64,000 bases of DNA from Owenia fusiformis (Eukaryota; Annelida; Polychaeta; Sabellida; Oweniidae): positions 28,587,936 through 28,651,935 of the forward strand of contig CAIIXF020000006.1 in assembly GCA_903813345.2 (NCBI GenBank), written 5' to 3'. How positions within the stretch are numbered: the stretch's first letter is position 1; every line of letters starts with the position of its first letter. Made by a program: the position numbers and the translations under genes. The notes under the pieces are model-generated. The model ran no database searches and was not told the origin of the DNA. It was given only the letters and a program-made list of their open reading frames with translations. Positions 1-51,165 of this stretch are shown here, piece after piece.

Positions 1-1912
1 ACATTATTCTTTAATTATTCACCGATAGGAAATAAAAACACAAATTCGGTAAATTTTTTTCTATAGGATTGAAAGTTCTCCTTGGCTTGTCTCTCCACTT
101 CATCTCGCCACATAGCAACGTACATTCAAAGTTGTCCGTGGAGTGTTTTTCGCAAGTTTTGAGAGCTTGAGTAAACGCTAAGTGTGGCTAGGCACTTGGG
201 TTGCCAGATGTCTCCGTATAAGATCCCCTCAAAGAAACTGCATGCTTAACCAGTAAATGTCACAATCATATACTATTCTATAAATTAGCATATAACATTG
301 CAATAAATTCTCTCATTTAACTTGAAAACATCAGCATTTGTCGCATTATACTTTTGGCAGATATATTGTCCAGGAAATTCTGTCCATAAAGCATGTGTGA
401 AATATCATGAACATGATAAATATATTACCCTATTTAGATGACTTGGGTAAATCAGAGATATCAATTAATATTGAAGTATGACATCAAGACAGAACTAAAT
501 TGACATCATGATGACATCATTTTATTTTCATACCTTATTTTTATCAAATGATGAATACTGTCATAATTATTGATAGTACAGAGTACAATTATGTCAATTT
601 ATTGACAAATGACAGATATTATAAAATTAAATCTAACTTGTGTAAGGTATAATTATAAATGTACCCAACTTCCCATTTCTCTTAAAGTGTAACACTTTTA
701 GACACTTATATTTAGAAGAATTTCAAAATCAAAGAATGGCTTCCTGTGGTATACTATATAGATATTCTTAAAAAACGTTATTCTTAAAATTCTTCTAACT
801 TTAATTGAACGAGTCTAATTTTGTAAATAAATATTGTAAGATATCATGGTAGAGTCATTATATAACTAATTAAAAATAACTACAATACTACAAATGAAAA
901 GATTAAACAGGCACATAGTGACCATGTACATATATAGAATGTTAACAGTGGCGATGTTAAAAAATTAAAACCTGGAGCTTAATTACGAATAGGGTAATTT
1001 TATCATATTGTTGCTGAATAAAAATAGATCAGTTATGTCCAGAACAATGCCAAGAAGAAAATCTAGCAATATTCATAAAGAAAAATAGAGAACAAGAAAC
1101 ACACAGAACATACTTTTAAACATAGGTATGCGTTACCTCATACGTCAATTAAATCCCAATTAAAATCACGAATCAAAAGTTAAATTAATTTCTGACGTAG
1201 CATGATGACTGTGTATGCCCAGGGGTTTTAATACTGAATTCAATACAACTTTTGATTGATTTATTTCAACTTTGAATACCATAATCCAAAACTGAGTGTT
1301 ACTCAGGTTAAATGTTATAAAAAATCAATTCAGGAATTTTCTGGTTTTTAGGATTATCAATAACATACAGTTGTAAATTTCATAATATATTTCAATTTGG
1401 AAGTAAAGCATTTATTAAGTGAGCTTAAATGCACCTATGAGAAACTAATCAAATCACGGGTAGCTGACTTTAATTTGAGGTTATGTTGAATGTAACCTGC
1501 CACAGTTCACCGATATTTTGGGCGATTCAATTTTAACATTGAACCTACACATTTTTGAATTCACTTTGATTGACAACTGTCCATTCACTTGAAAATTACA
1601 AAAAAAGCTGAAATGAAGAATCGTTATTGACTATTATGATGCCCAGGTGCATATTGGGTGCAATCGGGACTGATTCTTCAGGTGTACAGTTATACTGTTT
1701 TAAGATCTTTTACTAAGCTATATGTATGTATCAATGTTTCAGATAGTTTCTTTTAGCACTGAGAAGTTCAGTACATAAGAACACATTGGCGCAAATCTAG
1801 CACATACTGGTGCAAATCTAGTATATACTGGATGAGACTAATTACCGGGGCAAATCTAGTAATATTATATAACAACAACAGCATATAACAGTAATATTCA
1901 AGATATACTCAC
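1..1912. other. Part of intron 2 of the Lmx1-like gene
   Basis: This stretch lies downstream of the LIM-domain exon on the minus strand. I saw no LIM2 or homeodomain coding sequence on either strand, so the remaining exons must lie before the window. A short degenerate tandem repeat built on GCAAATCTAG occurs at about 1792-1862. Nothing else is supported. Confidence 0.6.
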
Positions 1913-2183
1913 TTGTCGTAGTCTAGTTTGCAAAAGAGTTTGCAGTCTTTGACGTAGCATGATCTTGTTAGAGGTTCCTGGCAAATACTACATTGCAAAC
2001 ACTTTTCGTGCCACGAGTTGGACATCACTTTGAGTAAAAATCGGTCCTCAATGACGGCTTGACACCCGCAACATATTTCTTTAACAGATTGTTCTGTAGA
2101 ACATCCATTCATAGTATTGTTTAGATGCATTGTCTCTATGCAATTTTTCATGCCACTGTTTCCTGTTGATCCGCACGATGTTT
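1913..2183 (-). CDS. Lmx1: Lmx1-like LIM-homeobox gene, exon 2 (first LIM domain)
   Basis: This internal exon encodes a complete first LIM zinc-binding domain: Cys-x2-Cys, 17 residues, His-x2-Cys, Cys-x2-Cys, 16 residues, Cys-x2-Asp. The motifs DRFLLKV, SWHEKCLQC and LFCKLDYDK match Lmx1a/Lmx1b closely; vertebrate LMX1A ends the same exon with a similar YDYEK. In the family this domain mediates protein contacts such as binding LDB/CLIM cofactors in the nucleus. The acceptor is a T-run ending GCAG just above 2183. The donor is GTGAGT just below 1913. It enters in phase 1 and leaves in phase 2. The second LIM domain and homeodomain are outside the window. Lmx1 rather than another LIM-HD class is inferred from motif resemblance. 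Confidence 0.9.
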
Positions 2184-3978
2184 CTGCAAAAAAATCAAAT
2201 AAACCATCAGTCAAGTCCATCTCTAGAGTAGAAATCTTTATCCCAACCCTAACGTCCATGTTCCATTTATGACTAACCATAACTCAGGATGGGGCCGTTA
2301 ATTGTCAGACCTACCTGACGTTGAGAAAAACAAACCCCCAGCTTTACAATTAGCTGTATATAAGGGTGTTCTAATTGGGCCATGAAGTAGAACTATCTTT
2401 GATATAGTACAAACATACATGTAATTGCAGGATATTTGTAATCTTTCCCCAAGATATAAGTGATACAAATGCAGAATATAAGTAGTACTGAAACATTGTA
2501 AAAACTCTTATGACACACAGTCTCCCTCCAAGTCCCCGTACATACCATTACGTCACTTCATCCTCTTGGTGCAAAATTGTTAGAAAGAGGAGGGGGTCCA
2601 TATGATCTATACATGAATATTCTAGACCATCACAAGAGATGCCAAAGAGACTATAGGTGTGGCCGTATAATTGATCTGATTCACATTATCCATAGCCACA
2701 TACATAGATCTGAAACCTCCCAGATTCGAGGAACTGAGGAGGTATACTTGTGATTATAACAATCGGTGATGTGGTTGGTTGGTGTGCAATTAATTCTTTT
2801 TTTGCGACTATGGCCAAAATTGTTCAAATATGTGCAAAATAATGAAGTGAGTCAAAAAGAGTTACCGTATTTAGAATTACAAGTTTGTCATTGAAGAGAT
2901 TCTCAAATATTCGTTATTTACACTTAGCTAACATTTGTTTTATTAAATATATAGGTACATCATGTAAATCTTTTATCACTTATTCTCTCTACCTTCTAAC
3001 TGTTAACATACGTGCTAATATAACTTCTTTTACACTTAATTCACTGAACATTTTAATTTTGACCATAATTCATGTTTTTTTTATTTTGTATCCCATAACA
3101 TTAATTTCAAGTTCAATTGCAAATATGCCATTACAAAAAAGATTCTTACCACTATCAGCCGGAACATGTTCCTCAAGCTCAAAAACCATCTTGCTATATC
3201 AATATACTATTTCTATATCTCTATATATGCTACATGTATATGCATACAGTATGTACAAGTACATACAGTTCCTTTGATGTTAGATATATTTAATCCTTTT
3301 GTTTCAATCTCTAATCACAATGTTACAATCTCTGTTTACAGTATGATTATCATGTGGTATTCTCAAGACATTCTCCTGTATTGAAATCAATCCGTTACCA
3401 AACAAATAACTATGTTTGGGTCTCTGTCCAAATCCACATGCCACCCAGTCTCTCAATACTTTACAACTGGCAGTACAAGTGAAACTGCCTGAGGTTGTAC
3501 GTGTAATCAAAATCAGAAATGAAATCAAAAAGTTTCCGGGTCTCATCGATTGATTGACAAATTCAATGATCGAAATTGATCAATCATGTTGCACAATCAA
3601 AATCATTTTTCAGGCAATTAGCACAGTTGGACCTGTTGTCAAACTTTACTTTATAACGGTCACAGATTTTTCCCAAAACTGATCACTAATAATAATTAAA
3701 TAATTTTCCTGATCTTTGAGTTTTTTTTGCAGTTAGATGATAGCCCTAAATATCTTTGTTACTCCTTGCTTTAACCTTATGTTGATCCTGAACAATTTCG
3801 ATATACATGTACTACTTAACGATCAAATGTTTCATTCAGATATTGTATATAATGAGTACACCAAACTGCAAAACACTGTCATTAACACATGAACCTAACA
3901 AACGATACAGTTGAAGAGTCATTATATGTTTGAAAACTGGCTTTGTCTGACAGTCTAGTAATATTGCATCAATCAAAG

Positions 3979-19361: not shown

Positions 19362-21641
19362 CTTTATTATTATTATTATGTTTATTTTCCCTCCAAGATA
19401 GGAGATAAATATATAATAATTAGGATACATAAATTGCATTGAAAGTATATAATAGTGAATGATATATATGAACATCAAGTATACGTAACTATACTGTATG
19501 TACTAATGTTATATAGCCAATATCGCAAATCACTACTCCCATGTTTGCGTAAAAAATCGAATAGATGAAATAGATCATATTGATTTTGAGTGATTTATGT
19601 GCGTGCCATTATCACCTCGATAAAAAGTTCTAGTTTAAAAGTTTCCTTCTCTTTGAAGATACATGTCTCGTATGTCACATGCAATTGCTTTTAGTTCATT
19701 TGGACTTAAACGGTCATCTCCTCCGAAAATCAACATCATTTTCTCCTGTGTGGTCATAGGAGGATTCATACTGGAATAAGTGTTTACTATGGCCTCGATG
19801 CGTTTCCTATTAACAGCATTATTTGAACAAAATAAAGTGAAGTGTTCTACTGTTTCGACTTCATCTCCACAGAGCGGGCATAGCCTCTCTTGAAAAGGGA
19901 TCCCTTCCCATTCACCAGTATTTACTCTCAAATTTCCCTGTCCCGTTAAAAGACGAACCATCAGCGCACATCTTCTCAAGTATCTTGGATCTTGTCTAGC
20001 GACCAACCACCATATAATAGGTTTTACATCCTGCACTATTCCTCTGTACAGTTTTTACTTTTGATACGTGGTCACTTCTCTCTTCCATCTGTTAAGGTCA
20101 TAATCTCGGATTTTTGTGCTTACTATGCGTTTCCATAATGTCTTAGAAGGCATTTCTATAGAGTCCAACATGTCATATATGCAGTTTGTAATCCCGTACC
20201 GTTCGGCAAGGTTCATAATGTCATTTATCGGAGAAAGACTATTCAGCGGTCTAGATCCGACTCTGAATGCAACCATACGTTTAATAGCGATGCTTCTGTA
20301 AACAGATCCAAGGGTCATGGATAACACCTGTAGAAGAAACATCATCTTCATGATAATAATAGTTGTTGTAATGCTATGCCAGCCAAGTTGTGGTAGAATT
20401 GCAACATTCGGTGTGCTCACTGGGAGACCCTGTAATTTTTTCGCAATATTGCGGTGTCCCTGTTCCAAGACCTCATATTCAACGTCATTAAGGTGGACCA
20501 GTTCCATGCCAAAAGTCATCGAGGGGACGCTTACAGCCCAATATAATTTGGACGCAGTGAGTGGGTTTGTGGGGTCTGTGCAGCTTGTTGTCGTCCCAAC
20601 GTATGCGTTAATGGACCTTCGAGCTCTAGAAATCCTGTCATCTACCAGCTCCCTGTTACTGTTACGGGCAGACAGGGGTAAGCCAACGTGTTGCGTAGAC
20701 GTCACGACCGGTATCACGCTTTCTCCAATTTTTAGTTCAATGGGTGCGGTTGGGGTCTTCTTCTTTGAAAAGACAACCACTTGGCATTTTTTCGGATGGA
20801 ATTTAATCCTCCAAAGTTTACTATATTCATGCATTGTGTCAAGAACAAATTGTACAGAGTTTTTATGGTATCCTATAATGACCATGTCGTCAGCATAGGT
20901 CGGACATGTACACACAATGTCACCTATCGTGCAGCCTTTTCCACAGTTGACAATATCAAGTATTAATCTATTCATGTATAACGAATGCAATTCCATAGAG
21001 TAAATACCCCCTTGGTGTACGCCTTGTGATATGTTGAATTTTTCGGAAAGAACACCATCTGAGCTACATCTAACTGCACATTTATAATCCATATAACATA
21101 AACGCAAAAGTCTCCATAGTTTTCCATTGACACCCAAGTTAAACATTTTGTACAACAGGCCTGCGTGCCACACACTGTCGAAACTTTTACGGATGTCAGC
21201 TGACACAACAATAACGTCCTCACCATTTTCCAGTCCATGACTAATAGCTTCTCTTGCTAAGAAGGATGTATGAAGGCAGGATGTATGTTTCTTATTTGCG
21301 GCTTGCAAATCTGAGATCTTTTCGGATAACTTAACATTTTCACTTCTTGTAACCATTAGCTTTTCTAAGATTTTCATGTATGCAACTATCAAGGTGATGC
21401 CTCTGTGGTTGTCCTTATCAAGGTTATCTTTGTTTCCTCCTTTAAATATAGGAACTAATAGTCCAAGCTTAAAACTCTCAGGAATATATTCTACCTTAAT
21501 AATTTGGTTAAATAGCTCTGTAAGCAACTGGAGCAGAACCCTACCTCCATGTTGAATGTGTTCTGCGCTTATCCCATCCCACCCTGTAGCTTTGTTCTTT
21601 GTCAGGTGTTCGAGACACGTGTCGAGCTTCTTGGGTTTAGC
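19362..21641 (-). mobile_element. 5'-truncated non-LTR retrotransposon
   Basis: The minus strand carries the C-terminal half of a reverse-transcriptase protein, a 3' untranslated stretch, and an A-rich TAA-type microsatellite at 19362-19385 that looks like the 3' tail of a LINE. The reading frame stops abruptly near 21641, where sequence similar to RT ends and AT-rich DNA begins. This is the usual 5' truncation of a LINE insertion. Clade not assigned. Confidence 0.8.
19635..21641 (-). pseudogene. Reverse transcriptase ORF of the LINE, one in-frame stop
   Basis: The frame starts within the RT fingers at KATGWDGISAEH. It continues through motif A (ADIRKSFDSV), motif B (QGVHQGG) and the catalytic YADD box (TYADDMVIIG). 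The C-terminal region has CPLCGDEVETVEHFTLFC, the Cys-Cys-His-Cys knuckle common after LINE RT domains. A single TAA at about 20055-20057 interrupts the frame between the thumb/connection region and the zinc knuckle; the frame on both sides is the same. No endonuclease domain is present because the 5' part is lost. The usual FDS of motif A and both catalytic Asp of YADD are intact, so decay appears mild. Confidence 0.88.
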
Positions 21642-25888: not shown

Positions 25889-26403
25889 GTATATACTTTT
25901 CTATGAGATAATGAATGGATCTAAAAGATATTACTGTCTTCATTAACAGAAAATAGTCATAATCCAAGATATAACTGTCTGAAATTGTTTGCTATAACCT
26001 ACGTGCTCCTTTAATTGTCTAAACTTAACAAGTATTTTTGAGAGTACTCAGATGGATGGATATTTTATCACATGACCTACAATTTAAATACGAAACATGT
26101 CAAAATTCATCAACCATAGCTTTTTAGGAACGAAATTGGAAAATGATTTCGGAAATATATTGCTTTGTTTTCATCAGCTTCTTAATGCGTTGAAATTCTG
26201 TATCCATCATATGTAGGAACTCAACTATTTTATTTGGCTGGAATTTTTTCTGTTCTTTCACGAGTTGACTTTTCAGCATGTCGTTTTGCAAATACTGATA
26301 CCCATACTTGCTATCGGGTTAATTCGGTTAGCGTATTCCCAAATTTCTTCTTTGAAAGAAATGGTGACACACTTTTAGACGGGACTTCCAAATAAGCCAT
26401 TCC

Positions 26404-26809
26404 CACGCGGTCCTAACTTCGACCGTTAATTTGAATTTTTGACCTACCAGGTGCTTGAAAACCAAGGAATGCGAGTGTCATACTGCACCGTTCTTCTTCA
26501 AACTAACCATTAAAAGCAGAATAAAATTGCCTTTCTGTCGGTGCATTACTTTATTTTAAACAGTCCCTCGTTCTAGCAGCGTTTTGGTCCCCAGCTGTTA
26601 GAAAGCCTTCTTACAGCTGGGGACCAAAATGCCGCTGGAAATAGGGACTCTGTTGAAGAGAATAATGTACCATCAGAAAGGGATTTGCGTTATGCTTTAA
26701 ATGGAACAAGTTTGAAGAAAAACGGTGCAGTATGAGACTCGTAATCCTTGATTTTCAAACATCCGGTAGGTCAAAAATTCAAATTAACGGTCGAAGTTAG
26801 GACCGCGTG
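26404..26809. mobile_element. Palindromic MITE, CACGCGGTCC family, copy A
   Basis: A 406 bp element whose two halves are near-complete inverted repeats. Ends are CACGCGGTCCTAAC and its complement. Flanks ATTCC (26399-26403) and ATTTC (26810-26814) fit a 5 bp target duplication with one change. The centre pairs TTTTGGTCCCCAGCTGT with its complement, so the whole unit can fold into one long hairpin. No coding sequence. Confidence 0.88.
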
Positions 26810-26884
26810 ATTTCAACTACTCGTTTGACCAAGTTGATGTATACGAAGGACGTTGTTTGTCAAGTTTAAGATTTTTTATGATTT

Positions 26885-27123: not shown

Positions 27124-30100
27124 TTAACATCCCGAGAAGCCCTTCGATTGGTTGAATTCAAATCTCCATATTTCAGCCGGATTATCCTTTGAAAGATACA
27201 CCCATAATCCCGCATCGTGTTTGCGGAAGAGAAGTCCTTCCCAATTTTTTATTGTCCCTGGGATTCGATGGATGGTCTGCAAAGTATAATAATAACCATT
27301 ATTCGTATACAATTATCTCGATATTACTTGTACATATGTTGTCCATCCACTTCCGTTCGTTCTTTCCCCAATTAGTTAGAGTAGTAACTGAGATAAGGAT
27401 TTTATCGTTAAAGGGAAAGAATAAAAGTCATAAATGTCAATTATAAAGTTTCAAATACACTGAAAATACTTAGAGTCTTAGACTTGTCTGAAACCATAAT
27501 TTTTTATGTTAGTCTCAGGATTTATGAATTTGAATTTTCAGACGTGTGAATTAGAATTTTCAGATAAACAATTGGCACTTACTACTGCCCCGGTGATCAG
27601 GTCCAACCCCACGAGAGACAGTACATTGTCGAACAACAAGTAAAGAATATTTTCATGAACCGTCATAGCGCCAACCTTTTCATCTTCTAACTCTCGGGGA
27701 ACTTTAATCTTTTTTGCGTCTATGGTTTGCCGATCATGATCTACGGGGACGTAGAACATCATCAAATTTCGCGTTGGGCGAACGATAAAGGTACCGTTAC
27801 CCACGATGGATACTGATGCGTTAGGCAGCAATGCCCGAGCCATGTATGTATCCATGTATGCCAAACTTTCCAACGAATTGCTGTTACCTAAATAAATAAT
27901 AATGAGACCATATAAATCAATGGAGAGTAGGACCATAATTTGATAGGACCTCCTACCCTTTTACACCTGTACTTGTAATATGACATATGAATATTTCGCC
28001 GCAAATCATGTGCCCCATAAAGCTGATCGTAAACTCACAAATCAGTGCTCTAAAACGAATTTTTCATCCTTGGTCCAAGGGTATTTCACCTCTTTCCATA
28101 ATTCTATCCTGAATTGAGTAATAAAAGAAGTCCTTTGAATGAAGGATGCGAATTTTTTGTTTCAGTTTTAAATTGTGCATGTTCATCCCTCTCCCTATAC
28201 AAGATAGGTCAGAAATGAAACTGTTTTCACTGCATCAAATGTGGAATTTCTAGTAATTTCTAGACGTGCTTAGTCGGTCTAGGAACTCCGTGTATCTAGA
28301 GATTTCTAGGCGTGCTTAGACGTGCTTAGAGCTGGCGTGGACAGAGCGTGACTAGAGTCTAGAAATCTCTAAGCACGCCGTGGTTAGACACAAGACAAAA
28401 TAAGTCGTTATTAAATTGCCATGTGAGATTTTGCGCTATATATGGAAACATTTAAATTATAATTTACCGCACGTGTTAATATTTCGTGTTTTACTTTAGC
28501 TAAATACGGGATATCAAATCAAAAAGAGTATGTTTTCACTTTATATCCGACTTGAGTCACGAAAAGTACATCGCAACATGACAACAAATGGTGAAAGAAT
28601 TATTGGCCAGGGGATACAGTATTATTTTAAACTAGACATCTATATCGGCGAGGGGGGGCTAACTTATTCCTGGGGTGGGGTCACATTTGATATTTGTTCA
28701 AAAATCACACGAAAACTGCTCAAAATGGGGAAAGAATAATTGGCCGGTGGATGCAGTATTATTTTAAACAATACATTACTGGGGAGGGGGCTAACATATA
28801 GTTGAAATTACAGAATACGCTACCTTTTTGATGATCTATAAACATAATCTTGTCATAAACAACTACTGATTTATATATGTGAACGGATATTTGGTTTAAA
28901 AAGAAACTGAATATAGGGTAAAAATGAGGGAGACACGGACGTCGGAAGAGTGGGGATAAAATCTAATGAACACTAAGCTGAGACAGAATGAGAATCATAT
29001 GTCTGGACTCACAAGATTTTCATAAACATATTTGTTGATTGCTCACGAAAACAAAAACAAATTTCAGGGTTCATTGGCATCACACAATATTTGCAAAATG
29101 GGGGAGTGCATTTTCCCAGGATTTAAAACAATGCTTTACTTTAAATGTCGCCCCTCATACTAGCATACGCTTTCTATCAGATTCAGTAGCACCCTGCCCT
29201 TGATATATTAATACATAGTTTTCTTGTACCCCTTTTCAAAAATACAACGAACTAAATACATAGTAATAATGATCTTGGAATTGATTGCGTTTTTGCTTCT
29301 TCAAAGACGGGATATCCCAAAATTACCTTGATTACAGCATTACGCTTTCAAGAGAGTCCATGATTGCAGTCTACATGGTCTATGGGCTATTTTTAATTCC
29401 TCGTTATTTTAGTTGTGTATCTTTGAATCTGATTATCATATACAATTAACTTTAACCAATTTTACCCGTTTCTTGAACTTCAAAACTGTCACATACATAT
29501 TGGTGGTCCCTAATCATATTAGGACCAAAAACAAATAACATAATTAAAACTGGAAAACATACAATACATATTCATCATCTCATCTATTTCTCCGGTGTGT
29601 ATCTCCCGGTAATCTTTATGCCTTGAGCCACCCCCCCCCCTCCTTACAGATACTTTAAATACACTTATTTTGACGCTACTTAATTTGACGAATTTGCTCA
29701 ATTTCAAATATTGGCGGCTATTTAATTTGGCGGAATCAGGACTGAAGTTTAATTTTTGTCTATGTTTATGCATGGCCTATCAAAAGATTCTCTTGAAAGC
29801 CCATGGTTTATGTCATTAGGACGGGTATTTACTAAGATATTTTCTGTATTTCTTTTGGGATAATGTATGACATGTTGATGACATGCTCAGTTGACAGGAA
29901 AAGGGGCCCCACAAGTTTAATTTCTGAAGTGCATTTGACAAAAATTAAAACGGGAGCCAAATTAAGTATCTTCAGCTATATCAATATTATTTTGTATCTA
30001 TCTGACATTATAATTTCGAAGAGAGATTCTCCCGGGGACATTCGGGATTTCGAACATAATAAACTTAATTCGAAATTGAATCTGAAATTCTGTCAGAATG

Positions 30101-42100: not shown

Positions 42101-44393
42101 AAGAATTCAATTTCGTTAGCGAATTTTGAGATGAATGCGATTTTTGTGAGAGGGATTGGTCAGGACAATGTGATTTTCTTTTCGGGCGATGGACGATGGG
42201 CGGTAAACACAATATCGCGTCTTCATTACGCACCCCTTCCATTAGATTGGCAATCGTGTGTTTTCATTTCGAAGCATATCAATATTTAAATCTAATTATT
42301 TCCTCAATTGCAATGCTAGATCTAGTAGTTCAGTTATTTGTGATATTTGACGAATTTATCTAAATCGCCAATCATAATCAGGATTTGATTAGATAGGTGG
42401 CCGAAAAAGGGATCCTGTTACTAATTTTATGGAGGGGGGGGGGTGTATGTAATATCGACCAATGTCCAAACAATTATATCCTGTACTATAGGAGAAAGTA
42501 CTCTTTAAAAAAGGGTTTCAAAAAACTATTTTGAATCATCGTTCTGTAATTGTGCACAGGAGTTTTTGTTTTTAGCGTAACGTAAACTATATTTTAATTC
42601 TTGTTTGCTTAAAAAGATTAATTTCAATATGATTCGCAAGTATGATCACTGCATCAAATGTGGAATTTCTTGCAATTTCTAGACGTAGGATGGTCTAGAA
42701 ACTCCACGTATCTACCGGGAGAGGCAACTTAAATGAATATGCTAATTGCGTCCATAGGCGAAGCAAGGGGGGGGGGGTGCAAAAAAGATAAAACCATGAG
42801 AAAGAAAGGCTCGATTTTGAAGAAATTTTTGTAAAATTCAAAATAAATCTTATTTTTATGGCTTGTTCATGCAACAATCGCAACCCCGTGACTGAAAACC
42901 GAAAAGTTTTTGGCGATCGCACCCCCCCCCCATCCTGAATGAAAGCTGCCCTATATCAATTAGTAATGATACATTGCATACACAATATGAACACACAGTT
43001 TTTTCATCCATTTGGTCAGACGCACAATAATAATACTATTCTAGTGTCTTGCTTGATACCCGGGGTTTGATGTAACAACTTGATAGATGCCCGGGAAAAC
43101 ATATTTTTACTAGTTATCAGTACAGCTTGTTTGGTATTTTACAAGCTTTAAACAGTACGTGATTTATTATTCAATCATATATGTAAAACGTCATGGTATA
43201 CGTGAACAGTTCGTTATACAAAATAATAAATAAAATAGATAAAAGATAAAAAGAAATTAGTATATTTCAGTGAAAATATGTCTAAATTATGAATGTTGAT
43301 CATAATTGCTTATAACAATATACATTCACCTGATTCGATAATTACTTTATTCTAGATTTCAATCATTAGTCTCAAGGCGTGCCAAGACTTTTTGTCACAC
43401 TCTAAGCACGTCTTTGCACTGCGTGTGCTTAGACGTGCCTAGAGATGTCTAGAGTTGGTTTCATCGCGTACCTAGACGTGTCAAAACTAGTCACGCCTAA
43501 GCACCCGGCGTGCTTAGACTTAGTTTCTAGACGTGCTTAGTCTAGAAATTCCATTTTTCACGCAGTGTTTCATACAGAAAAAGTAATGTTCATGGGATAA
43601 CATTGTTATCATCTATTTTGATCCCTCAAGTCTGTAAACATGTGAGAAAGTAATTGTATGTAGCTAAAATAAATATATTAAAGAAGATCATGAGATAAAA
43701 TGAAATATATGTACCCCATTTGGTGCCAAACGACATAGTCCGAAGAATCGCTCCCTTGCTGATGTCGTATTCCAAAATTCCATTTAGTTCTCCTTCAGAT
43801 CCAATGTAGATGATATTAGGATCATTTGCGAATGTTAAACTTTCGAAATCCAGCAAGGCAGATCCTGAAATAGTTCAGCATACTTTAAGGACGATTATTA
43901 TTAACATTTCTGATGACAATGTAAACATGTACTTCAAAATGAACTTTAAATTGTGATATATATACAACTGTTTTAATCTGTTTCAAGGCCATGAAGTACG
44001 TTATATAGCATCTGAAGTCTCAGTCTCATTTACTCTACGGCAGCCGTACTGCGGTCGTAGCTTCACAAAATCGATTTACATCGTACTGCTTATCCCAATC
44101 ATTTATGCTGCATTTTTCTCTCGATTTTGGGAAGCCACAGCCGCCGTGCGGTTGTCGTAGATCAAATGTGACTGAGGCATTACCCGAGCCAGCAATATTT
44201 CCACCAACAGTTATTTCTTCCTTAAACACCCCAGTATCCAGATCAACCATGGCAATCCTGTTGTCGGAACATGTCCAGGCAATCCGCCTGTCAGGATCAA
44301 TTGAGGCAAGGTCACTCGGGGTAAAGAACAGAGGAGTATTCTGCAGCGGAAGACGGTGGCAGGATGGAGACTCAAATTGTGGGAACACAGTTT
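27124..44393 (-). CDS. Phytase-like beta-propeller protein (four exons, 5' end unresolved)
   Basis: Four minus-strand exons join in phase: 44184-44393 (GTTTTAG acceptor, GTAATG donor), 43715-43864 (TTTCAG, GTACAT), 27583-27887 (TTTAG, GTAAGT) and 27124-27276 (TTTGCAG, ending TGA). Junction phases are 1, 1 and 0. The protein of about 272 residues shows blade-like repeats: DLASIDPDRRIAWTCSDN, DFESLTFANDPNIIYIGSEG, LESLAYMDTYM, ILYLLFDN and NWEGLLF, then a tail VYLSKDNPAEIWRFEF. The ESLTF-x-YIGSEG and EGL-x-SKDNPAEIW patterns resemble esterase-like-phytase or SdiA-regulated propellers. Usual length is 300-400, so an N-terminal 60-100 residues, probably with a signal peptide, is missing; no such exon was found. 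It lies 0.3 kb downstream of the VTC-type gene on the same strand. The 15.8 kb second intron is filled with mobile DNA. Enzyme activity is inference. Confidence 0.7.
28228..28385. mobile_element. CACTGC / TCTAGAAATT element, left-end fragment
   Basis: It begins CACTGCATCAAATGTGGAAT exactly as the element at 42647 does, then carries repeats of AGACGTGCTTAG and its complement. The right terminus is missing. It lies in the large intron of the beta-propeller gene. Confidence 0.65.
30895..31100. repeat. G-tract MITE-like repeat, copy 1
   Basis: Long poly-G and poly-C runs surround an A-rich body containing ACCATTAGATAGAAGAA and GTAAAATTCAAAAT. The same body occurs at 41200-41440 and 42750-42935. 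Ends are not defined. Confidence 0.5.
31362..31853. mobile_element. Element with GGCCTGTCAACT ends and GTCACGC motifs
   Basis: The left end reads AGGCCTGTCAACTGTCCC and the right end is the complement of AGGGCTGTCAACTTGGGACC, an imperfect inverted pair about 490 bp apart. The left half has seven or more TGTCACGC words; the right half has a short tandem repeat of GGTGTTCAAA(A/T)TTTGG type. A related left half lies in opposite orientation at 47090-47346. Confidence 0.6.
32959..33115. mobile_element. Short MITE with CAGGCCCGTAGCCA ends
   Basis: The 157 bp unit starts CAGGCCCGTAGCCAGGAT and ends TGGCTACGGGCCTG, with G-rich tracts between. Flanking 8-mers AATATTTT and AATTTGGA agree only partly, so the target duplication is uncertain. 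The CAGG ends recall hAT MITEs. Confidence 0.7.
34272..38869. mobile_element. 4.6 kb foldback element with satellite arms
   Basis: The ends are inverted copies of GGTAGTAAGCTAGCACCC and continue as long inverted arms of at least about 450 bp (34272-34740 against 38400-38869). Inside the outer arms come tandem units of about 345-370 bp, marked by GTGGGCGTCGCCCCCAT, two to three on the left and three inverted on the right. A central region near 35700-36700 has no convincing gene. The 16-mer GAATTATGGTCCTCTT lies in direct orientation just outside both ends (34254-34269 and 38870-38885). This architecture recalls foldback (TU-type) elements of sea urchin, but their target duplications are much shorter. 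A CAGTGATCT MITE sits inside the right half. Confidence 0.8.
37227..37432. mobile_element. MITE with CAGTGATCT ends, copy 2
   Basis: A 206 bp copy with a perfect 9 bp inverted terminus CAGTGATCT and an exact 5 bp direct repeat GATGA at 37222-37226 and 37433-37437. It aligns along its length with the copy at 3979-4182. It interrupts the right half of the foldback element and has no counterpart on the left, so it probably inserted later. Confidence 0.88.
38940..39329. mobile_element. Palindromic MITE, CACGCGGTCC family, copy C
   Basis: A diverged 390 bp relative of the element at 26404 with the same fold and centre (CCCCAGCTGTGAG). It is flanked by an exact 5 bp direct repeat ATAAA at 38935-38939 and 39330-39334. 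It sits about 70 bp outside the foldback element. Confidence 0.82.
39525..39587. repeat. Perfect 22 bp inverted repeat
   Basis: Arms at 39525-39546 and 39566-39587 are exact complements around a 19 bp loop. The arm core is GATATACAATATATCTTCC. Transcribed RNA would form a strong hairpin; no known family is recognised. Confidence 0.85.
40755..41173. mobile_element. Palindromic MITE, CACGCGGTCC family, copy B
   Basis: A 419 bp copy very similar to the one at 26404, with an exact 5 bp direct repeat TTAAT at 40750-40754 and 41174-41178. The left terminus has two changes (CAATCGGTCC). It is a full-length palindrome with no coding content. Confidence 0.87.
41200..41440. repeat. G-tract MITE-like repeat, copy 2
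   Basis: A poly-G run, then ACCATGAGATAGAAGAAG and GTAAAATTCAAAAT, ending at a poly-C run. Same body as at 30895-31100. Confidence 0.5.
42647..43567. mobile_element. CACTGC / TCTAGAAATT element with both ends
   Basis: The left end is CACTGCATCAAATGTGGAAT. The right end carries TCTAGAAATTCCA and finishes CACGCAGTG, forming an imperfect inverted pair. The right 200 bp is packed with CGTGCTTAGAC and its complement. A G-tract repeat (about 42750-42935) appears nested in it. No target duplication was recognised, so the two ends might come from two copies. Confidence 0.55.
42750..42935. repeat. G-tract MITE-like repeat, copy 3
   Basis: A poly-G run, ACCATGAGAAAGAAAGG, GTAAAATTCAAAAT and a poly-C run follow the same order as at 41200-41440. 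Lies within the CACTGC element. Confidence 0.5.
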
Positions 44394-44703: not shown

Positions 44704-45910
44704 TTATTGAAATCTATGTACATAGTTACCTTTTATTTGACCCGGGGGGGACATGTAAAATGTCGCACATATCCCCCCAATTAGGAACACTGTCAATATA
44801 CCTGGACCGAACCAATCATCAAATCTAGAAGCGTTTCCTTTTTTGATCAAATGCAGGCGGACCTATCGAAAGTAAGATAAAACTATTTATCAAAATGTAA
44901 TATTTTAGTTTCTAATGTTCTGTATGTTTAATCGTTTACGATTATTATATATCAAAATGGAAATATCAAATATGGAAGGTCAACGTTATATGTGTAATCC
45001 CAAATGAGATATGAACTGCAAAATTTTAAGATGGAAAAAGTCAATTTGAAGCGAGTTGAAAATACCTTTTTGATAGTTTTATTAAAATCATAAAACTAAA
45101 TTAGCTATCATAGTTCTTCTATATAACTAATAATAGTATTGTTCATTTACTTACATAGAACACAGTGCAAGCATAGATGAACATAAATAGTGACAAAGCA
45201 AAGAACATGATGCTGATATTCCTCGTGGCCTGGTCGTGAATACCAACTAAAGCTCCTCCAACACCAAGCAGAAACATCCCAGCCTGCCCCCATTGCATAA
45301 ACGTTCTTTCGTTTGCGAAGTATGTTTTAGGCTCAATTTTCAGCCTTTTTGTTGCTTTTTTGTAAGATTTGTTCCTTCCAAAACAACACCCGCTTTCAAT
45401 GTTTACATCACGATCTTCAGTGGTTGTAGGGGAAACCTCAACGATACGCGAATTTTCAGATTTGGACGCACCTAAATAGAAATTAAAACATTAGAGAATC
45501 AAGCACAACTAATCCACGTTCTTGTCAAAAATACTGATGACGATCTTTAATCAAGCATAGTCTTTTTCTCATACGAATCTTTTATAAAATATTATTGAAT
45601 TGAAAACATATTATTGTAGAATTACGGGTGCTTTATAGAATCAACAGTAATACTATTGTTGTCAAGGACATCCTAGGCTGTATTTAGGTATGTCATCAAA
45701 ATCAATGGTGCGTGTAGAAATTCTTTATTTCGTTTTCTTACTTGGTTTGTTATGTGTTCGTGTTTGTTGGTTAGTTACCACGGCGTCTGTGAAACCCCCA
45801 TTGACATATGCTTTCATATTAGATTTGCAGGTAAGGCTCATCCTTGGGAAGGAAACTTTCCGATTTAGGTCCTCGCTGATGGTGTCGACTTTGTCGCATC
45901 CTTCTCTTAT
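44704..45910 (-). CDS. SPX-VTC-DUF202 gene, 3' part: linker and DUF202 membrane domain
   Basis: Three exons: 45742-45910 (linker; CATAG acceptor, GTAAGA donor, leaving in phase 1), 45155-45471 (phase 1 in, phase 0 out, GTAAGT donor) and 44704-44862 (TAA at 44704-44706). The middle exon has KTYFANERTF, the signature at the start of the DUF202/VTC1 domain, then two membrane segments around FLLGVGGALVG and IMFFALSLFMFIYAC. The last exon has RFDDWFGP followed by a third segment, ILTVFLIGGICATFYM. Order and spacing match the three-helix C-terminus of yeast Vtc1 and Vtc4. In yeast this domain forms the channel through which polyphosphate crosses the vacuole membrane. The linker exon was placed because it alone reconciles the phases of its neighbours, so it is less certain. 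A GTATAT donor in the last exon (just below 44802) could allow an alternative 3' end. Confidence 0.88.
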
Positions 45911-46079
45911 CTATGTGATAATGATAATCAGACTACTGTTCACAATTGACATTCACCCACCCAATGTGGATAAAGTATTTCGAAAGACGACGTGTTTAGC
46001 CAAATTTTATTCATAATCTGATTCGTAAATATCTTTAGGAGTATGAAAAGATCTATAAAATCATTACTATATGTTTTAC

Positions 46080-49000
46080 CCTTTCCGTTCTTAGTTTCGC
46101 CTGGTCCATTTCTTCTTCCTCGAACCAATAAGGAAATATTTTTACTCTGTCTGCATTGAATGAAGCTGCCCCTTGTTGGAACTTGGAAAACTTGCTGACC
46201 TAAATATAGATAAATGTTTTCAAGATTAGAATTAAAGAGAGAATCAGATCTAGCGAGCAGGCCAACAAAAAATTATTTCAATTTTAGAAAATTTCTGGCT
46301 CATGTCATTCCTTGTCATGTCTAATATTTTCTAAAAATCCCCAAAGTGCACACTTTATTTTCGGAAAACTAAAGATTTTTACAATAAGTTGTCATTTTTC
46401 TATAAGAATGGTTACCATTCTTATTATTTGGGAGAATTTAAACATTTTTCACCCATTTTTGAACTTTGAATCCATAATAACTTTATCAATTAACGTATCA
46501 TGAATCTTTTTGGAGATATTGTATTTGAGATCATAAAGAATAGATTAATAGATCAATTGTACATGTTGCTTGCAATTTTTTCACCCCTATAGATCTGATT
46601 CTGCCTTTAATGTTAAACTACAACTCATTTTGTTTTATTCTCTCAATATCCGTTTATGCAGACACATGTATTTCTAAATATGTATGTCTTAATGTAGATA
46701 TCTTGCATTTACACTAAATCGGGGCTTAAATCATTCCTACTTGTTTTAATGTGTGGATGTATGTAAAAAGTATTCGTCAATTAGGATATTTATTTAAATC
46801 ATGCTAAGTATAAATGAACCAACTGAACGCCCTTTGGACTTACCATGCGTATTATTGGAGAAGAAAGAATTTCTTCGAGCCACGGAGGAGAATCGGTTTT
46901 CAACTTGACCTCTAAAACTGCAGCTTTGAAACTTAGGCAATCCTCTTCTTTGCATTCTATTGTTTGGGTTGGACGATACCACAGTGATTGGTCTCTAACA
47001 TCTGGGTGTTCGTTTACAAAAGACAGAGATTGGTCCAAGCTTGAAATGAAATCATTGAAAGCTAGCCTATATTTTCCCAATTTCGAACGGAATGCGTGAC
47101 ATATCCGTAATTCGCGTGAAAAGTCCCAACGAAATGCGTACGTTTTTTTCCCGTCGTTCGTATTTTTGCTGTGTAGACGATCTTTTTTAGAAAATTTTCT
47201 CCAGAAATATTTTTGCTTGACAATTACCAGGTAAAATGCGTATTTGCGTGACATTTTCTGTCACGCAAAAATAATTGGCGTGACTTCAAATTCTTCAGCA
47301 AATGCGTGACAAATACGCAAATTGCGGGACAGTTGACAGGCCTGAATACTACAGGTATATAAGCTTATATAAGCTTGTATTCGCGAATGCAACTCGACTG
47401 TTGGCTATCCGATTGACCTACTTTTCATGGCAAACTCATTTAAATATGAATGGAATACTAGTAGTAGCAAGTACTATTCATATATAAATGAATTGGTTAT
47501 GTAATAGTAGCTTAATCCGTCAGCCAAAAGCCGGCAGTTGAATTCATGAATGCAAGATAAGTGACCGTGCGAAATCTCTAATTCGATTAAATCATGAATT
47601 ACTCATACGTGATTCTGACGTCATCAGATGACACAAGTTGAAATGCAGATCTCTTATACACCGTCCTGACAATGGGAACCAATCTTTTCTTTACGATTTC
47701 TCTTTGAATATCCTCTGCTAGGGCATTCCCAGATTTACTCAGACAGCAGTCAGCTGCGGATTTTCTTCCTGGTAGTGGCGCACATGAAAATAAGATCAAG
47801 TCGTTGTATCTTTGATTAATTAATTTTCAAAGCAGGGTACAAACTCATTGATAATATGGGTACTTGAAGCAGGACTACTGTGTAATCTTTGAAATGTGTT
47901 CATTTACAATATTCCCTTTGAAGATAACTGATAGCTAATGATATTTGCCATACCTGTTACATAATCCATGATGGAGGAACTGTCTATGGGAAATCTCTCT
48001 TTCAGACTCCTATCAAGGACCCACGACTCGTGGTGTGTCTTTCTCTCGAAATATAAACCAGTTGAACCCGTAGCAGGAGGGTTTGGAATGAAACAATTCT
48101 CATCTTTACTTCCAGAGAGCTCATTTGGATCAGCATACCTACAAAATTAATTAATCATATATTACCATCTTGTTATAAATACAACAAGCAGTCAGTCGTC
48201 GCCATAATGGCATTTTGGAAGAAATCCTTAAGTGGTACATTTGCAAAATATCTGACATACGGTAAATAACGATTTCACGATGAGGGGAGCATAGAAGAAA
48301 AACAGGCAATTCTGGGCTGGGTTGCGTCTATCTAACGCAAATTGGTCTTTATGACTACATACCATCGCAGGCGAATCAACGTTGAACCTTCTTTCATATC
48401 AAGTCTCTTGTGGTAGGAATGAAGATCCGAACTGTCGAAATAAACTGAAGATATCCAACCCGTTTTCTGTAAGCTCTTCAATTTTTCAAACTCGGCTTGG
48501 TGCTGAAACGAAGACGATAGGCTGTAAAATGAATTATTGAATGGTTTTGATAAAAACACGGGTTCTTTTTATCATTAAAGGGACTCCATGCCTATTTTCT
48601 GCAGCATTCTTTGACAAAACGAAGTCTTATTTTTGATTGATATTTCACCGGAAACCAAAACCAGCTCAAACAGACCACATTAGAGTTTACAATAAATTCT
48701 CCGAAAACATTTTCGATCTGTCAATTTTACATGAGTGTCAAGTTTTTAGCAATGTCAATGAAAGATGGTGAAGTTGTTAGCATCCCCGATTCATTCATTT
48801 TTGATATGATCATTAACCATACGCCATCTTTTAAAATTGAAATCAAAAGTTATTTAAAAATACACTTTGTGAAAAGTGGCCATTGTAATTCTATGGAACT
48901 CTGAACTTCAAATGCTGTTTCTATGTAAGTTATTTTTTCACACTTCAGTATCAACCAAAATTAAGGTTTTTATCACATCTGATTGAGTGTGTAACATATC

Positions 49001-49563
49001 TCAAAGATAATTTCATCCTTTTTTCAAAAATATGCATAGTGCCTGTTTAAACTACGTATATTTGATTTGCTACTCTCGATTTGAAAAAGCGAAAAAGCTG
49101 AACACAAACAAAAAGATGTATAAACATGCGTTTCCATGGTTCCACACATACAACATTTTAGAAAAGCAGAGATCAAGATGTTTGTGACACACCTCCTCAT
49201 GGACGTAAAGGCCCTGTTATAAATGGACAGACGATTAATGAGACCAGGCCCTTACTGGCCCTGATTGCGTATAAGATAATGAGGGAAAGAGTTGTATTTA
49301 GGTCACCATATAAATCAATGGAGAGTACGATCATATTTTGATAGGACCTCCTCCCATTTTACACCTGGACCAATCCGCGCTGCATGTACGTGTACCTGAT
49401 CAAGCATTATGCTTATCTTCCTTCGATTTAAATGTCGTTGATCGACATCGTCTTTGCCCCGATGGAATATAAAGATAGGCAAGTGCTTCACCAGCATCGT
49501 CTTCAGCTTGAAAACATCTTCACGATTCACCCAGTATTTACTGCTTTTTCTTTCGAAACTCTC
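46080..49563 (-). CDS. SPX-VTC-DUF202 gene, middle part: VTC polyphosphate polymerase domain
   Basis: Six exons join with consistent phases: 49396-49563, 48363-48502, 47954-48138, 47609-47768, 46844-47039 and 46080-46199. Together they encode a full triphosphate-tunnel (TTM) domain. Motifs in order: FERKSSKYWV, KLKTMLVKHLP, SSVYFDSSDLHSYHKRL, LIRLRWY, YFERKTHHESWV, KERFPI, PIVRTVYKRSAFQ, VRITLD, AVLEVKLKT and SKFSKFQQG. In yeast Vtc4 the same motifs supply the basic residues lining the tunnel and the metal-binding Glu; the enzyme turns ATP into polyphosphate. None of these residues appears lost, so activity is plausible. The 46844-47039 exon starts at a less typical CAAG acceptor. Introns hold a TTAA-type MITE and a TGTCACGC-rich element. 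Whether the protein sits in a lysosome-like organelle is unknown. Confidence 0.92.
46232..46610. mobile_element. TTAA-type MITE inside a VTC-gene intron
   Basis: The element reads TTAAAGAGAGAATCAGA at the left and ends TCTGATTCTGCCTTTAA, an inverted pair bounded by TTAA on both sides. That fits a TTAA target duplication as made by Kolobok or piggyBac elements. A copy of the same length lies at 57347-57727. It occupies most of the intron between two VTC exons. Confidence 0.82.
47090..47346. mobile_element. TGTCACGC-rich element fragment in a VTC-gene intron
   Basis: On the minus strand this matches the left half of the element at 31362: GGCCTGTCAACTGTCCCGC, then several TGTCACGC words and TTACCTGGTAATTGTCA. 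It lies just upstream of the VTC exon at 46844-47039 and extends that exon's open frame artificially. Confidence 0.7.
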
Positions 49564-49908
49564 CTGTTAAAGAAGGAATAAGGTTTTTACTTTGGCAAAA
49601 CAGATTGTCCAAACGTTTATTTATTTCAGTATTTTTAGTCACTTCTTTGTGACTTTGTGCACACACACTTTATGCACACACTAAAGATAGAACAATAGAC
49701 TAGATATGATGAGTTATTATGGGTAGGGATTGCAGAGATACCAAAACCTTGATTATCGTGTGGATTACCCTTTAATAGGTTGTCTATTGGAAACGCCAAA
49801 ATAAAGTAACATATCTGTGATTTACATTCTACAGAACACCGGAAGTTCACCCATTTTGTTACGTAATCAGCCCCTCCACCTTAGTAGCACAACTGTAACT
49901 ATACAAAC

Positions 49909-50409
49909 CTGTGATGATTTATTTTCTTTAGATGGTTGTTGAGCATCTGCGTCAGTTTCAGTACAAGACAGTTTATCTTCATTTCTGATATGTTCATACA
50001 GATCACTTAGCTGGACTAACATGCCCTCCACCTCATTGGATACTTCGTCGAAAAACTGGCCCTGTTTTTGGGCTTCAAACCAATACGAACGGATCCCAAC
50101 CGCTTTGTCATGTTTTTTCACGATCTTTCGAAATCCTTCATTATTGTAATGCGCAAACGTGTTTATGTATGATAATTCGTCTGCCAAGTCGTCTGCAAAC
50201 TGTTTTAGACGATGGATTTCGTCAGAGTCGTCACAATTATTGCGTCCCTTGATTTCAATGTTCTTTTCAATGGTTCTGAACTTATTTCTCAATTCTTCAA
50301 TCCTAGAATTAAAAAATCGTATCAAGTAGGATTTTAAGAGTGATATATGGTATACTTTCAGGTGTTGATATATAGCCGCCTTGTCCAATTTGCGTGTATA
50401 CTCTGGCAC
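49909..50409 (-). CDS. SPX-VTC-DUF202 gene, 5' part: SPX exon
   Basis: The exon encodes most of an SPX domain. The diagnostic stretch is YINTFAHYNNEGFRKIVKKHDK; in known SPX domains the Lys residues of this motif bind inositol pyrophosphates and so sense phosphate status. Coiled-coil-like helices (RIEELRNKFRTIEKN, VEGMLVQLSDLYEHI) flank it. The exon ends SSQ before a GTTTGT donor in phase 0, matching the next exon. The upstream limit is unclear: the frame stays open to about 50457 with no ATG, and two acceptors are possible (TTCTAG near 50306, or GTACAG near 50445). The SPX N-terminal helix with its conserved Tyr and Lys must come from an exon I could not identify. Known full-length proteins have about 720 residues; the exons found here give about 700. 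Confidence 0.85.
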
Positions 50410-51165
50410 GAGTGTTTTTGATGGGGAATTTACGATGACTGATACTGTACCCTATTTATTTTCGTCAAATCCTGTTCGATTTACACGTTATATTCAAATC
50501 GAATTGATTTGGTCTACACAAAATAGCAACTAATCCCTATGTACATTTTTAACTTCCAGCTTTGAATTACAAACAGTAGGATTTTTATGTACTTGAAGAA
50601 AGTTTCGATAGAGTTAAGCATAATATTTTATTATCTACACGTTTTATGGAAGTTAGGCCTAGTGGATTGAACGATTTGTTAAAATATAAGATGATGACGT
50701 CATATATTGTATTTAGAGACAAGGAGGATTGGCTACCAGGATTCCAACTCGATATTCTGCCATATATGGAGATGTCGTGGCCACAAAATTCGAATTAAAC
50801 AGCTGCCATTTTATTCACTTCTTGAATCGCGAATTTTGGTCCCGGATTTTGGTCTTATTTCCATCCCAAAAAATCCAAAAGTACACAAGAAATGATAAAG
50901 ATATTGATTCGAATCTTTTGGACTATTTATTATGAATTTATAGCCAGTTACAATTTCAGAAAATAACGACATTCTGACATTTTCATTGTAGGAAACTATC
51001 GAGTTGCGTCCCTGGGAGCCAATCGTCCTTTTGTCAATATTAGACCGCAGCAGCAATAGGTTTTCTAAGGAGTTCCATAGGGTACCACGTTGACCGAAAT
51101 ACTATTTTATTCAAACGTAAATTATTGAGTTCATGGATGCAACAAAAAGTAAAAGTATTTATATA

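Follow-up and report, generated by a model that had tools for sequence, protein, structure and literature searches.

The stretch analysed here, called the window throughout, is 64,000 nucleotides of the forward strand of the polychaete annelid Owenia fusiformis (GCA_903813345.2, contig CAIIXF020000006.1). Its coordinates are C6:28587936-28651935 in an assembly that totals 498,259,871 bases and comprises 525 contigs, of which C1 to C12 are of chromosome scale (31.9 to 62.2 Mb) and C13 measures only 0.66 Mb. On its minus strand, the window carries all but the first exon of a gene, B, whose product contains the SPX, VTC/TTM (tunnel) and DUF202 domains of the yeast polyphosphate polymerase Vtc4. 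A second gene of the same type, A, lies on C1, and the contigs that bear the two are 62.2 and 40.8 Mb long. Searching the genome with the VTC profile PF09359 gave six exon matches, confined to these two loci, and when the tunnel domain of B was used as protein query, 12 matches were obtained, six at each locus. Past DUF202, both genes appear to continue into an additional C-terminal domain, which is absent from the yeast protein.

Exon joints were placed by hand, each copy serving as guide for the other. Gene A was modelled from the C1 locus, and exon 1 of B was reached by extending the DNA past the right end of the window. Each gene was found to have 15 exons, with 14 of 14 introns bounded by GT and AG, and 14 of 14 intron phases equal between the copies. 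Introns occupy the same alignment column in 11 of the 14 cases and are one column off in two others; intron 9 sits in a divergent linker where its position is not comparable. The deduced proteins, of 1022 (A) and 996 (B) residues, align from end to end with 50% identity.

Gene B spans 42.5 kb. An earlier note made from the letters of the window had described ten in-phase exons over 5.8 kb, a model that holds for its interior: exons 2 to 11 (50302-44730, minus strand) do join in phase at GT-AG boundaries. Both ends of that model were wrong, however. Its first exon (50457-50303) was rejected, as it ran into intron 1, and the acceptor common to A and B, before GAT(A/T)GA at 50302, lies after it. 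The true exon 1, which encodes the start of SPX (MKFGNTL...) and shares 64% identity with its counterpart in A, was found 19 kb upstream of exon 2, outside the window (extended coordinates 69637-69447, minus strand). The stop at 44704 was rejected as well, being located within intron 11; exon 11 splices on after 44730, at a phase 1 donor that has its counterpart in A, and leads into four more exons.

Within the window, exons 2 to 13 of B occupy 50302-43715, all on the minus strand. Exon 2 (49909..50302), whose acceptor and phase 2 are common with A, encodes the remainder of SPX. The VTC/TTM domain begins in exon 3 (49396..49563, KYWV) and extends through exon 4 (48363..48502, with R295 and R297, equivalent to yeast R264 and R266), exon 5 (47954..48138, ERKTHH), exon 6 (47609..47768, RTVYKR and VRI) and exon 7 (46844..47039, AVLEVKL, in which E456 is yeast E426), ending in exon 8 (46080..46199, KFSKF). 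The divergent cytosolic linker is encoded by exon 9 (45742..45910) and by the beginning of exon 10 (45155..45471), which also contains DUF202 helices 1 and 2, with K623 and R630 in place of the yeast channel residues K622 and R629. Helix 3 is in exon 11 (44730..44862). The C-terminal domain, predicted to be extracytoplasmic, starts in exon 12 (44184..44393) and continues in exon 13 (43715..43864). Beyond an intron of 15.8 kb, exon 14 (27583..27887) carries a conserved NGT sequon, and exon 15 (27124..27276) closes in TAA, the protein ending in GFSGC.

A broken copy of the SPX exon 1, frameshifted and without start codon, was noticed 0.8 kb past the stop of B (26163..26346, minus strand), and is probably the relic of a local duplication. 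Just upstream of it, inverted arms at 26400-26830 resemble, by eye, a small terminal-inverted-repeat element.

The order SPX, VTC/TTM, linker, DUF202, which had been read from the letters in the earlier note, was recovered in the spliced B protein by Pfam and by solved-structure alignments, and the motifs KYWV, RLRWY, ERKTHH, RTVYKR, VRI, AVLEVKL and KFSKF are all present in it. Among the three corresponding profiles, PF09359 and PF02656 were matched above cut-off, whereas the SPX profile PF03105 was matched below it (see below). On the spliced proteins, VTC reached 174.5 bits (E 3.4e-51) in B and 194.9 bits (E 2e-57) in A, for a cut-off of 23, and DUF202 reached 39.9 bits (E 5.8e-10) in B and 38.2 bits (E 2e-9) in A, for a cut-off of 23.4. 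Among solved structures, B is matched best by a yeast Vtc4 chain (E 4.1e-58), with an alignment that starts at residue 1. Its SPX part matches the Vtc4 SPX fusion construct 5iit (E 2.5e-8), and its DUF202 helices match Vtc1 chains (E 7.3e-13).

Residues of yeast Vtc4 with a published role were mapped onto both proteins by alignment. In its accessible part, PMC9911596 names Y22, K26, K133 and K129, K132, K136 as SPX ligand residues, R264, R266 and E426 as the inactivating triple change, and K622 and R629 as pore residues. All 11 are retained in A and in B, the catalytic ones being R283/R285/E440 in A and R295/R297/E456 in B. Ten further positions which we take to be tunnel residues of Vtc4 (K200, K281, K294, Y359, R361, R373, K428, K455, S457, K458) are likewise retained, 10 of 10 in each copy. 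At two neighbouring positions that are not known to be functional, yeast V619 is replaced by I in both copies and T630 is retained. By these alignments, both proteins possess an N-terminal SPX domain with its inositol-phosphate site, and a DUF202 domain of three helices in which the basic residues of the pore are retained. In a hydropathy scan with a threshold of 1.6, DUF202 helices 2 and 3 were the only segments to pass, along with, in B, a stretch within the C-terminal domain.

The genome search with PF02656 (DUF202) identified two loci only, both inside A and B. No separate Vtc1 (stand-alone DUF202) or Vtc2/3 gene was found by genome search, which weak or divergent genes could escape. The search with PF03105 picked up one other exon and missed the SPX exons of A and B. 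That further SPX exon, of 52.7 bits (C6:22591026-22591262, minus strand), probably belongs to the phosphate exporter XPR1.

Beyond DUF202 helix 3, A and B each continue for about 265 residues, with 51% identity between copies. The earlier note had missed this domain and had assigned the layout of yeast Vtc4 to the whole protein, which does not stand. Four points suggest that exons 12 to 15 are part of the polymerase gene in both copies: they occur in the same order at both loci, they are joined to exon 11 in the same phase (within one column), the tails obtained by reading on from exon 11 into the intron look unrelated, and the frame that enters exon 12 of A has no ATG. By analogy with yeast, where SPX and tunnel domains are cytosolic and each subunit has three helices (PMC9911596, accessible part), the C-terminal domain would lie across the membrane, facing the lumen or the exterior. 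An NGT sequon is common to both copies (A 902, B 875); A has 4 sequons in all and B has 7, of which some fall in cytosolic regions.

Relatives of this domain were looked for in several collections. Scans of bacterial genomes and of viral contigs, which started from two exact peptide patterns, gave 74 and 38 pattern-matched stretches respectively, none of which was confirmed. In plasmids, seven records were returned with a best E of 0.4, and three of these were 'YncE family' genes of Roseibium (E 6). The top-scoring site lies in what reads as a CoA-transferase-like frame, and its record gave no match to the Phytase-like profile PF13449. NCBIfam models gave E 0.17 for B and E 0.26 for A (a 6-phosphogluconolactonase model), both judged to be noise. 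Within the worm's own genome, 8 of the 9 matches to the domain fell in A and B, and the remaining one had an E of 0.96. A genome search with PF13449 produced no candidate, but the domain of B itself, which is split over exons, escaped it too.

Uncorrected differences between A and B were computed over 948 aligned codons. Synonymous differences amount to 0.84 per site, which is saturated, and non-synonymous differences to 0.29. Part by part, the non-synonymous value was 0.29 in SPX, 0.24 in the tunnel, 0.40 in the linker, 0.23 in the membrane part and 0.34 in the C-terminal domain, where the synonymous value was 0.83. Non-synonymous differences being far below saturated synonymous ones, both genes have been retained as proteins. 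Judged by this pattern, the two intact copies are under purifying selection, C-terminal domain included.

It had been argued in the earlier note that introns with repeats found elsewhere in the window speak against microbial contamination. Introns 3, 6 and 7 of B do recur elsewhere in the window (86-91%), and intron 10 has a 32-base match. However, the partners of all four were located in introns 1 and 13 of this very gene, so that window repeats by themselves would be compatible with foreign DNA. The conclusion holds nevertheless on other grounds. The dispersed repeat in intron 7 (46220..46600) is matched at least once on every one of the 12 large contigs, at 87-94% identity; 41 matches were scored, its own place included, the best 40 of 2,979 candidates being scored. 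This repeat marks the B locus as native DNA. The two loci lie on contigs of chromosome scale and have matching introns, and the assembly contains 42 exon matches to Wnt (PF00110), against 0 of 14 in prokaryote controls; Wnt is known from animals only. Gene B is therefore a native animal gene and not a contaminant. Elsewhere in the window, and likewise in favour of native animal DNA, a LIM-domain exon at 1912-2283 (minus strand) has its nearest matches in constructs of Lhx3 (1.9e-14) and LMO4, hence a LIM-homeobox-like gene probably lies there. A reverse transcriptase frame of the long interspersed nuclear element type was seen at 19638-21641 (minus strand; RVT_1, E 3.5e-24), and the frame that follows it has a sub-threshold zf-RVT match (19.5 of 27.5 bits).

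We consider it likely that the products of A and B are the animal's own form of the VTC polyphosphate polymerase-channel, with an added C-terminal domain at the exit side. By the yeast mechanism, SPX would bind inositol (pyro)phosphates and switch on the tunnel domain, which would transfer gamma-phosphates of ATP to the growing polyphosphate chain. The first DUF202 helices of several subunits would line a basic pore and let the chain be threaded out of the cytosol, and the C-terminal domain, on the far side, may receive, bind or trim the emerging chain. As no stand-alone DUF202 or extra VTC gene was found, the pore is probably formed by A and B subunits, presumably in complexes of A and B alone, and several copies of the C-terminal domain would then be ringed about the exit. 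There it might bind or trim the chain, or serve in its mineral handling, and the complex might reside in an acidic organelle or at the cell surface. Both genes are presumably expressed and their products enzymatically active; the pair is apparently functional. A broader proposal, to which we give somewhat less than even chances, is that some animals possess a self-contained, one-protein polyphosphate machine, in which sensor, polymerase, pore and an exit domain that catches, trims or mineralises the chain are combined without Vtc1 or Vtc2/3 partners, and that this machine is the missing synthase of the lineage.

Several observations weigh against these proposals. Yeast requires three kinds of subunit (Vtc1, Vtc2/3 and Vtc4), so that a Vtc4-like machine of one or two subunits would be a departure. 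The SPX profile PF03105 stays under its cut-off of 27.8 bits in both copies (B, 21.1 bits, E 3.6e-4; A, 22.7 bits, E 1.2e-4). As the joints were set by hand with each copy guiding the other, the agreement of phases between A and B is no independent test of the models. In the C-terminal domain of B, PF13449 scores 26.1 bits (E 1e-5), under its cut-off of 27.6 bits, and in that of A it gave no match at E up to 10; within the whole B protein the score is 21.3 bits (E 2.8e-4). A hydrolase role of the domain is hinted at only by this sub-threshold Phytase-like match. Profile searches of solved structures returned no match for the domain, nor was any found for A; two matches of the domain of B to PDB entries are at chance level (E 1). 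Five propeller-like segments were distinguished by eye, as might be blades of a beta-propeller, but a shuffle test gave them no support: the internal repeat score was reached by 52 of 1000 shuffled sequences in the case of A and by 189 of 1000 in that of B, which is not significant. Finally, an in-frame ATG shortly precedes exon 12 in B, as would be expected if the C-terminal exons formed another gene further downstream and the polymerase ended at DUF202, as yeast Vtc4 does. The stop that is met after exon 11 when intron 11 stays unspliced, and the 15.8 kb of intron 13, which set apart part of the domain in B, would agree with such a split. However, exon order is equal at A and B, intron 11 is in phase 1 in both, within one alignment column, the read-through tails after exon 11 appear unrelated between the copies, and in A the frame into exon 12 is free of ATG codons from the last stop up to the exon. 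We regard two separate genes as very improbable.

In yeast, Vtc2 and Vtc3 also carry SPX and TTM, the catalytic subunit being Vtc4 (PMC9911596, accessible part), and A, B or both might be non-catalytic subunits or regulators of that sort, making no polyphosphate. The retention in both copies of the 11 published and the 10 further functional residues, for which the comparison was made with Vtc4 alone, and the strong constraint on both genes make this unlikely. As to origin, transfer of the gene from an alga, a protist, a fungus or a giant virus into the lineage, followed by duplication, would explain a patchy distribution, reviews giving VTC as absent from animals in their accessible parts. In the same direction, an SPX-VTC gene on the viral-looking contig NZIV01000064.1 is 37% identical to A and B, which is near the 34% and 32% of yeast Vtc4. 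Yet the matching introns of A and B, together with their 50% identity, suggest that the gene has long resided in this genome. When viral contigs were scanned three times with the VTC part, no relative was confirmed, which is weak evidence of absence since few exact peptide patterns were used as seeds, and no VTC was found in plasmid records. Transfer is a possibility to be kept in mind, though we think it the less probable origin. Contamination or mis-assembly, by which the gene would belong to another organism, has phylogenetic oddity alone in its favour; it is opposed by contigs of chromosome scale, by the intron 7 repeat on every large contig, by introns of up to 19 kb and by the animal Wnt genes of the assembly, and can practically be dismissed.

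The view of the earlier note that the animal polyphosphate synthase is unsettled agrees with the literature, as far as the accessible parts of the papers go. These restrict Vtc4 within Opisthokonta to fungi (PMC10657179), state that animals are without this type of polymerase (PMC12526157), describe the protein that makes polyphosphate in animals as unidentified (PMC7332688), and call metazoan polyphosphate kinases elusive (PMC13061417). SPX transcripts from sea samples have been assigned to Metazoa, by the SPX domain only and not by VTC (PMC8233357, accessible part). In a full-text literature search, to which most subscription papers are external, no report of an animal VTC gene appeared in titles or abstracts among the matches listed. 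Invertebrate SPX/VTC proteins with automatic names are probably present, for some species, in public databases; for this reason we do not claim the first such gene in animals, only a contradiction of the reviews. Two intact genes in one animal do contradict the flat statement, made in papers of 2020 to 2026 in the parts accessible, that animals lack VTC, and A and B are directly testable candidates for an animal polyphosphate synthase. An exit-side domain that is kept in both copies suggests that export of the polymer may be coupled to something outside the cytosol; the solved yeast complex has no such domain.

Among known families, the Phytase-like PF13449 is approached by the C-terminal domain of B, below cut-off, and not by that of A. 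The SPX-VTC protein of NZIV01000064.1 resembles A and B in joining SPX and VTC in a single chain and in its KFSKF and RLRWY motifs, but it has 426 residues in one open frame and, by reading of that frame, neither DUF202 nor the C-terminal domain. Its gene (646-1926) lies in a stretch of 18% G+C filed as a metagenome-assembled genome of Neomarinimicrobiota, which looks like mis-binned DNA of a eukaryotic virus. Yeast Vtc1 consists of DUF202 only; the helices of B match it, and the genome searches brought up neither a stand-alone DUF202 gene nor separate Vtc1 and Vtc2/3 genes as in the yeast complex. The closest likeness is to yeast Vtc4 (PDB 8i6v, 7ytj, 3g3q), in which SPX, tunnel polymerase and three-helix DUF202 follow in equal order, with agreement at all 11 published residues tested and, for B, a tunnel domain that is 38% identical. 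A and B differ from it by their animal host and by the added domain of about 265 residues, for which the searches of solved structures gave no credible match.

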